64,000 bases of DNA from Agromyces albus (GTDB lineage Bacteria; Actinomycetota; Actinomycetes; Actinomycetales; Microbacteriaceae): contig NZ_SDPN01000003.1 in NCBI RefSeq assembly GCF_004134825.1, forward strand, positions 1 through 64,000, written 5' to 3'. The position numbers were made by a program, and so were the translations under genes. Positions 43,509 to 54,716 of this stretch are shown here, one piece after another; position 1 is the stretch's first letter; each line of letters begins with the position of its first letter. The notes under the pieces are model-generated. The model made no database searches. It was not told the origin of the DNA and saw only the letters and a list, made by a program, of their open reading frames with translations.

Positions 43509-44506
43509 GGGTACGGCCCCCAGTCAGGTTCGCGCTTCTCGAGGAACGCATCGCGGCCCTCGACCGCCTCATCGGTGCCGTACGCGAGGCGCGTCGCCTC
43601 GCCGGCGAAGACCTGCTGCCCCATCATGCCGTCATCGACCGCGTTGAAGGCGAACTTCAGCATGCGGATCGCCGTCGGCGACTTGGTGAGGATGGTGCGT
43701 GCCATGGCGATCGCCTCGCGCTCGAGTTCGGCGTGCGCCACCACGCGGTTCACGGCGCCCATCTCGTACGCGCGCTCGGCCGAGTACTCCTCGGCGAGGA
43801 AGAACACCTCGCGGGCGAACTTCTGTCCGATCTGCCGCGCGAAGTAGGCACTGCCGTAGCCGGCGTCGAAGCTGCCGACGTCGGCATCCGTCTGCTTGAA
43901 CCGGCCGTGCTCGCGGCTCGCGATCGTGAGGTCGCAGACGACGTGGAGCGAGTGGCCGCCGCCCGCCGCCCAGCCCGGCACGACCGCGATGACGACCTTC
44001 GGCATGAAGCGGATGAGGCGCTGCACCTCGAGGATGTGCAGGCGGCCGAGGCCCGTGCCCGCCGGTGGTTGAGTAGGCAGCGAAGCAGCCGTATCGAAAC
44101 CACCAGCGGATTCGTCGTTCGCGGTGGCCTCGATACGCGTCGCCTCTGGCGGCGCTACTCGACCACCGGGCTCCTCGTACTTGTACCCGTCTCGGCCGCG
44201 AATCCTCTGGTCGCCGCCCGAGCAGAACGCCCAGCCGCCGTCTTTCTCGCTCGGCCCGTTGCCCGTGAGCAGCACCACCCCGATACGGGGATCGATGCGT
44301 GCGTGCTCGAGCGCCCGGTAGAGCTCATCGACGGTGTGCGGGCGGAACGCGTTGCGCACCTCAGGCCGGTCGAATGCGATGCGGGCGATGCGGCCGTCGA
44401 GCGAGTGGTGGTAGGTGATGTCGGAGAAACCGGATGATCCGGTGACGCCGGGCGCGGCATCCGTCCACTCGTTCGCATCGAACAGTTCGGATACCTCGGG
44501 CGCCAT
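43496..44506 (-). CDS. menB: 1,4-dihydroxy-2-naphthoyl-CoA synthase
   Basis: A 336-residue crotonase-fold enzyme cyclising o-succinylbenzoyl-CoA. Oxyanion and active-site segments are GWAFCSGGDQRIRGRDGYKY, VVIAVVPGWAAGGGHSLHVVCDLTIASREHGRFKQTDADVGSFDAGYGSAYFARQ, and the ending AVEGRDAFLEKREPDW. Residues about 113-151 are an extra segment encoded by an inverted pair of palindromic repeats, placed in the loop after YKYEE. In other MenB proteins this loop is shorter and flexible, so the enzyme should still fold. The start is fixed by the -10 box. Confidence 0.94.
   Translation of the reverse strand: MAPEVSELFDANEWTDAAPGVTGSSGFSDITYHHSLDGRIARIAFDRPEVRNAFRPHTVDELYRALEHARIDPRIGVVLLTGNGPSEKDGGWAFCSGGDQRIRGRDGYKYEEPGGRVAPPEATRIEATANDESAGGFDTAASLPTQPPAGTGLGRLHILEVQRLIRFMPKVVIAVVPGWAAGGGHSLHVVCDLTIASREHGRFKQTDADVGSFDAGYGSAYFARQIGQKFAREVFFLAEEYSAERAYEMGAVNRVVAHAELEREAIAMARTILTKSPTAIRMLKFAFNAVDDGMMGQQVFAGEATRLAYGTDEAVEGRDAFLEKREPDWGPYPWHF
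44064..44104. repeat. Palindromic repeat A inside menB
   Basis: Begins GGTGGTTGAGTAGG and ends GTATCGAAACCACC, with GGTGGTT/AACCACC outer arms. Confidence 0.85.
44123..44167. repeat. Palindromic repeat B inside menB, inverted
   Basis: On the minus strand it begins GGTGGTCGAGTAGCG and ends CGTATCGAGGCCACC, so it is a diverged inverted copy of repeat A, 18 bases away. Confidence 0.85.
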
Positions 44507-54625: not shown

Positions 54626-54716
54626 CGGTGGTCGAGTAGCGCCCGGCGCATCGCGCCGCGCGACTCGATCACCGGAGCGGACGCGTCCGGCTGCGCCGGG
54701 CGCTACTCGATCACCG
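54626..54716. repeat. Inverted pair of palindromic repeats at the luxR stop
   Basis: Arms 54626-54650 and 54692-54716 begin with GGTGGTCGAGTAGC and GGTGATCGAGTAGC on opposite strands and pair over 25 positions with one G-T mismatch. The right copy supplies the last codons and TAG of the LuxR gene. Confidence 0.85.

Follow-up and report, generated by a model that had tools for sequence, protein, structure and literature searches.

An inverted pair of palindromic repeats read in frame within the A-loop of MenB in Agromyces

The menB gene and the inserted pair

The window (the whole 64,000-nucleotide stretch of DNA that was analysed) contains menB and, within it, two related palindromic units in opposed orientation (Table 1). 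The product has a Pfam ECH_1 match (E 2.9e-54) and matches MenB chains in the PDB (E down to 5.5e-134), and it combines the two features by which MenB orthologues are recognised, membership of the crotonase family and the conserved A-loop tyrosine. Its closest named MenB relatives among the matches listed are from Agromyces, Microbacteriaceae. An earlier interpretation of this DNA from its letters alone (the sequence-only reading) had proposed that two related inverted elements lie 18 bases apart in menB, and both units were located with a spacer of that length. It had also placed about 39 added residues at 113-151; the insertion is real but its extent was slightly overestimated, the units and spacer together accounting for residues 114-148. 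The absence of a frameshift was borne out, with the menB ORF open across both units. The insert encodes a peptide rich in Gly, Ala, Thr and Pro, and its long unit has CGA at a position where many copies of the element show TGA in the menB reading frame.

Table 1. Features of the menB locus and of a second pair in the window
Feature	Position	Strand	Remarks
menB, 1,4-dihydroxy-2-naphthoyl-CoA synthase, 336 aa	43496..44506	-	ORF spanning the insert without a stop
Long unit, 45 nt, first arm in reading direction	44123..44167	-	residues 114-128, GGRVAPPEATRIEAT
Spacer, 18 bp	44105..44122	-	residues 129-134, ANDESA
Short unit, 41 nt, second arm in reading direction, antisense-read	44064..44104	+	residues 135-148, GGFDTAASLPTQPP
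Whole dimer in menB	44062..44169	.	single-stranded DNA fold prediction
Another opposed pair of this family, degenerate	54627..54715	.	TAG stop (54703-54705) of a LuxR-type regulator gene (- strand) provided by the right unit

No inverted pair in 43900-44400 was picked up by a general repeat finder run with its default settings, so the evidence for the pair comes from a pattern search, from the fold and from copies elsewhere in the genome. With up to two mismatches the 13-mer GGTGGTTGAGTAG occurs four times in the window (mean of 0.41 in shuffled sequence, at least four in 0 of 100 shuffles).

In E. coli MenB the A-loop comprises residues 88-106 and includes the conserved Tyr-97; it is disordered without ligand and, with ligand, folds into a beta-turn and a beta-hairpin (PMC3637252). 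E. coli Leu-106, Val-108 and Leu-109 correspond to Synechocystis Leu-96, Val-98 and Leu-99 (PMC3637252). Alignment of the menB product to solved MenB chains pairs Tyr108 with Synechocystis Tyr87 and Leu156 with Leu96, and by this offset the insert is placed within the A-loop, after the conserved tyrosine. The flexible loop named in the sequence-only reading thus corresponds by alignment to the induced-fit loop of the active site (PMC3637252). As in the E. coli and Synechocystis proteins the loop has its tyrosine and ends at a hydrophobic patch (here residues 156, 158 and 159), but 47 residues separate the tyrosine from the next leucine in the host protein as against 8 in Synechocystis (4eml); the figure for M. 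tuberculosis MenB (1q51) is 18, and the insert is missing from both of these distant proteins. Tyr108, Tyr110 and Gly154-Ile165 are kept, with and without inserts, in all 31 MenB proteins of a set made up of the host protein and 30 chosen from 120 listed.

For the menB dimer, the one pair for which a fold was computed, the structure predicted for single-stranded DNA combines an outer stem of 14 bp with a middle stem and two side hairpins; its energy is -36.5 kcal/mol (z -6.3), a stability that none of 200 shuffles reached. The predicted structure is therefore four-way and not a plain hairpin. Folded singly, the two units gave z -2.4 and, for the long unit in a slightly cut form, z -1.7. In the predicted dimer the GTA of GTAG pairs with the partner unit and the last G opens the side hairpin. 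The side-hairpin stems covary around a conserved mismatch at pair 4. Outside pair 4, 229 of 232 stem cells are paired in the 47-nt units (29 distinct), 69 of 70 in the ten 45-nt units and 131 of 135 in the 41-nt units (27 distinct), with pair 4 mismatched in 28/29, 10/10 and 24/27 units respectively. When the register of the 47-nt units was checked, 230 of 261 cells paired in register and 48 to 139 of 261 in slid registers.

A dispersed family and its encounters with genes

A search for further copies had been proposed, and the host assembly (4.29 Mb, 111 contigs) holds 86 exact copies of the pattern GGTGGTYGAGTAGN{8,30}TATCGA, both menB units counted, as against none of the same pattern written backwards. 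The exact pattern is present in 26 of 60 Agromyces genomes, at 0 to 86 copies each, and the control matches none. A shorter core was counted in nine genomes, giving 33 to 192 copies in eight of them and 2 in G027 (controls 0 to 3); G012 and G057, with no exact copies, have 127 and 96 by this measure. The exact pattern was also found in 29 of 199 Microbacteriaceae genomes, and in 20 of 85 genera, in a sample that contains the host and three other Agromyces. Two genomes of other genera in the family, G128 and G171, have 73 and 49 exact copies.

The anatomy of the element was drawn from the neighbourhoods of the host-genome copies, which resolve into 99 units at 70 sites, 44 of these with a single unit. 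Units are 41 nt (39), 47 nt (37), 45 nt (10) or of other lengths (13), and have sharp ends (CCGGTGGTY...CCAC), agreement at the end positions CC|GGTGGT and CCAC being 90 to 100% per position. GTAG sits internally in each unit, between outer arms GGTGGTY/RRCCACC. Counting neighbouring units less than 150 bp apart as pairs, there are 21 opposed pairs and eight in the same direction. Every opposed pair is head-to-head, its GTAG-proximal ends facing outward; the reverse arrangement does not occur. Spacers in opposed pairs are 0-22 bp, mostly 9-13. A short unit (up to 43 nt) is combined with a long one in 19 of the 21, and the chance of at least 19 at the observed frequencies is 1.3e-4. The suggestion that menB carries a REP-like pair agrees with this short-plus-long heterodimer, usual for the family.

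Both flanks of all 70 sites were tested for a coding frame entering the element by codon-position GC with fixed thresholds. A coding frame enters on 26 of the 140 flanks; 21 of these frames end inside the element (11 at the TAG of GAGTAG, eight at the TGA of GGTGGTTGA and two at the edge) and five pass through. The read-through genes are menB and those for a LysR regulator (L001), an Abhydrolase_3 protein (L195), an EamA transporter (L209) and a CopD/CtaG membrane protein (L212). A sixth in-frame copy lies in a Clp ATPase gene (L173), in the linker between Clp_N and the first AAA domain; here the upstream GC test failed and the case was accepted on its domains and relatives. The count of copies within ORFs proposed in the sequence-only reading is thus six of 70 sites in frame within a gene, menB being one. 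Candidates were first chosen by eye from 119 spanning frames, and the fixed thresholds later added L001.

The frames in use are f1 in all three forward arms, r1 in four of five reverse arms (DT...T[QR] peptides) and r3 in the remaining one; with so few arms, a bias toward f1 and r1 is not firm. In consensus units f1 needs CGA to stay open; r2 is more hydrophobic than either f1 or r1, and f3 is more hydrophilic than f1. As f3, the most hydrophilic open forward frame, is used by none of the in-frame copies, hydropathy alone is insufficient to explain the frames used. The frame and one base (CGA versus TGA, or TAG in another frame) decide whether a protein is lengthened or a gene ended.

A search for Y1_Tnp (PF01797), which we take to cover RAYT and IS200-type enzymes, gave no match in the 60 Agromyces genomes and one among the 199 family genomes, in G070, itself without an exact copy of the element; the same search was positive in 5 of 14 control genomes. 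That no RAYT is detectable despite up to 86 exact copies per Agromyces genome raises the question of the mobiliser. The 177 coding-like ORFs of the fetched neighbourhoods were screened for genes recurring between loci. A DUF222-HNH protein is the only recurring gene with very strong similarity and was set aside as a candidate, being beside two sites, too few for a conclusion. The two genes (L189 1545-3092 and L027 1551-3038) are highly similar, one is Pfam-confirmed as DUF222-HNH, and each ends beside an element; this adjacency could be due to chance or to a duplication that included the element.

The loop in related genomes

Loops were taken from the MenB genes of 59 of the 60 Agromyces genomes (G020 gave a weak match only), and a match (59 loops against five queries) was accepted at a score of at least 12, provided that no more than 1 of 200 shuffles scored as well. 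Nine loops match a repeat and 50 have none at this threshold. Elements of the menB type are found in eight, those of the host, G055, G012, G030, G057, G002, G048 and the more divergent G023. Judged by matching contigs or loops, G012 would be A. cavernae, G002 A. albus and G048 sp. ISL-38. The loop of G027 (probably A. larvae) holds another, unrelated repeat family encoding PEPVEG. Since two unrelated repeat families occupy the loop, there have been at least two insertions in it. Three lower-scoring loops, L077 and L081 (score 11, 0/200) and L080 (just under 12, 1/200), were not counted, as a few such are expected by chance. The menB loop of G027 (L060) has grown by repetition of a coding unit, VASTGSASSGA, present in several copies next to an CCCGAGCCCGTCGAAGGG repeat; 111 residues separate the anchors used. 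PEPVEG-like loops were also seen, by eye at the protein level, in three of the 120 listed MenB proteins (P0037, P0043 and P0047). Another listed protein, P0001 (466 aa, longest contig 1753 bases), has a repeated N-terminal half, is probably a chimeric menB, and was left out.

The host, G002 and G048 form one clade in a MenB tree (100/97) and in a Clp+CtaG tree (100/100), and their MenB cores differ by 4 to 7%. Whether G002 or G048 is the closer of the two to the host depends on the tree. In frame, the host has both ends of the pair, G048 the left end only and G002 the right end only. The simplest reading of these sequences is that one insertion preceded the split of the three and was followed by two different in-frame losses, on either branching order. 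Among the Agromyces MenB loops compared, none showed a clean empty site for the menB insertion. With 19 of its 56 inner branches starred, the MenB core tree has too little resolution for insertions to be counted on it; for the distant carriers one old insertion or several would fit equally.

The other in-frame genes show comparable variation. A match to the hydrolase loop was found in 6 of 12 genomes tried, host included: a pair in the host, one long and two short units in G048, related arms in G030 and a degenerate stretch in G002, with none seen in G007 or G057. The CtaG loop has one unit in the host and repeat sequence in G048, is empty in G002, and by eye retains a remnant in G055. In the Clp linker, compared by eye and unscored, GFDTR.TSS.ATQP or a close form occurs in the host, G055 and G030, with a similar stretch in G049; other repeat-like peptides are present in G027, G023, G002, G012 and G048, and none was seen in G057, G007 or G008. 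A query with the 42-residue insert peptide returned 34 rows in 5 of the 60 genomes; the majority are copies of the repeat that do not lie in a convincing coding frame. Among the rows, the LysR orthologue of G048 has a duplicated arm, and a TilS-like ORF of G030 (L263 1405-2538) carries the pair peptide near its start, just ahead of the PP-loop domain.

The same comparisons bear on whether the menB copy descends from a single transposition or was renewed later, through re-insertion or through gene conversion or recombination among repeats; such renewal we regard as possible though unlikely. Refreshment or re-insertion could account for the 34-nt core of the short unit, identical in 10 of the 99 host units including that of menB, for second arms of another, decayed type in G055, G012 and G057, and for the different hairpin sequence in the long arm of G057. 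It could also account for the long arms of G012 and G030, which are identical over 36 nt, as was seen in 0 of 273 core windows. Most arm comparisons, however, show no clear difference from the MenB core (host with G012 is borderline, at 15 of 273 windows, and four other pairs are unremarkable), and what is left in G002 and G048 agrees with simple descent within the host clade.

Comparison with known elements and origin of the insert

A REPIN consists of two REP units, inverted and set apart by a short variable spacer, that form a single-stranded hairpin with compensatory changes, singlets being probable remnants (PMC3116915, PMC8049555), and some E. coli genomes retain REPINs without a RAYT gene (PMC8049555). 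The Agromyces element is like them in its inverted units, short variable spacer, predicted single-stranded fold, compensatory changes and single units, but differs in the predicted four-way fold, in its outer arms and in the lack of a Y1/RAYT match in the 60 Agromyces genomes. GTAG REPs, their head-to-head heterodimers and the stop codons supplied by the tag were described by Di Nocera et al. 2013 (PMC3733652), as were REP dimers inside genes, encoding 20-30 aa and found mostly in Opitutus terrae and Rickettsia conorii (PMC3733652); the word Actinobacteria is absent from the main text of that paper. Shared with the present family are GTAG next to a variable, covarying stem-loop, head-to-head heterodimers, TAG stops and dimers in genes, whereas here GTAG is internal with conserved outer arms and no RAYT was found in the 60 Agromyces genomes. 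Rickettsia palindromic elements (RPE) are palindromic repeats read in frame within unrelated genes. The present family is like them in its behaviour alone, sequences aside, being inserted in frame in unrelated genes in another phylum. The sequence-only reading had named such elements from Rickettsia, and they are published for unrelated genes there and elsewhere (PMC3733652). In-frame REP dimers in genes are therefore of a kind already published (PMC3733652). Among the papers listed from the open-access PMC literature, subscription papers being outside the scope, no description of in-frame REPs in Actinobacteria was found, and the sole match listed for the string GTGGTCGAGTAG was on G-quadruplexes and splicing. 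What is new here is apparently an actinobacterial family without detectable RAYT, the MenB A-loop as a site, and two repeat families in that loop.

We consider it probable, with good confidence, that a REPIN-like, non-autonomous palindromic element inserted in the menB A-loop of an ancestor common to close relatives and was tolerated; on the sequences compared, the insert is most likely a tolerated selfish insertion. A hairpin element of this kind, a short-plus-long heterodimer of about 105 bp, would have transposed into the part of menB that encodes the A-loop. Most insertions within genes would be lost, survival being expected where an open frame places a harmless peptide in a loop, and versions of the element with TGA or TAG would instead become the stop codons of genes. 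After landing, the element would decay or be trimmed in frame, according to lineage. The menB dimer may have survived because the frame used has no stop, because its peptide is of the composition described above and because the loop is variable in length, and it may be neutral for the MenB enzyme. The tolerated landing site proposed in the sequence-only reading is supported. Relatives carry decayed or trimmed versions in the same loop, so the insert did not first arise in this strain.

It is improbable that selection instead maintains the inserted peptide for a function it has acquired, in tuning A-loop closure or the hexamer contacts of MenB. The A-loop is indeed involved in ligand-induced fit (PMC3637252), GGRVAPPEATRIE, the peptide of the long arm, can be recognised in the host, G055, G012 and G030, and the metagenome protein P0002 keeps both arms; yet G002 and G048, the nearest relatives found, have lost almost the whole insert in frame, 50 of 59 Agromyces loops lack a repeat at the threshold used, and similar peptides occur in unrelated proteins. 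A role of the hairpin as a nucleic-acid signal on menB mRNA or DNA, through transcript stability, termination or protein binding, appears very doubtful as the reason for its retention. The strong predicted fold and stem covariation would suit such a role, and comparable roles of REPs are discussed for other systems (PMC3733652), but the covariation is family-wide and fits a mobile element equally well, and the second arm has decayed in the menB loops of G055, G012 and G030. Assembly error (mis-assembly of repeats can occur and the assembly is in 111 contigs) and a menB pseudogene can be dismissed, as the insert is internal to a 191,955-bp contig, related inserts lie at the same place in independent genomes and in metagenome proteins, the frame is intact and so are the columns invariant in the 31 chosen MenB proteins.

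Tolerated insertion in an ancestor remains the favoured account, and a wider proposal is put forward tentatively, in two parts taken together. A REPIN-like family of the Microbacteriaceae may spread without RAYT/Y1, by another enzyme recognising the four-way hairpin with its mismatch, and the MenB A-loop and Clp linker may be recurrent pegs at which unrelated palindromic repeats independently turn coding. If this is true, the MenB A-loop and the Clp linker would be natural records of insertion and in-frame trimming. In the host, selfish-looking palindromic DNA can still be read in the active-site loop of a conserved enzyme, and its relatives preserve later steps, with one arm decayed or one end left.
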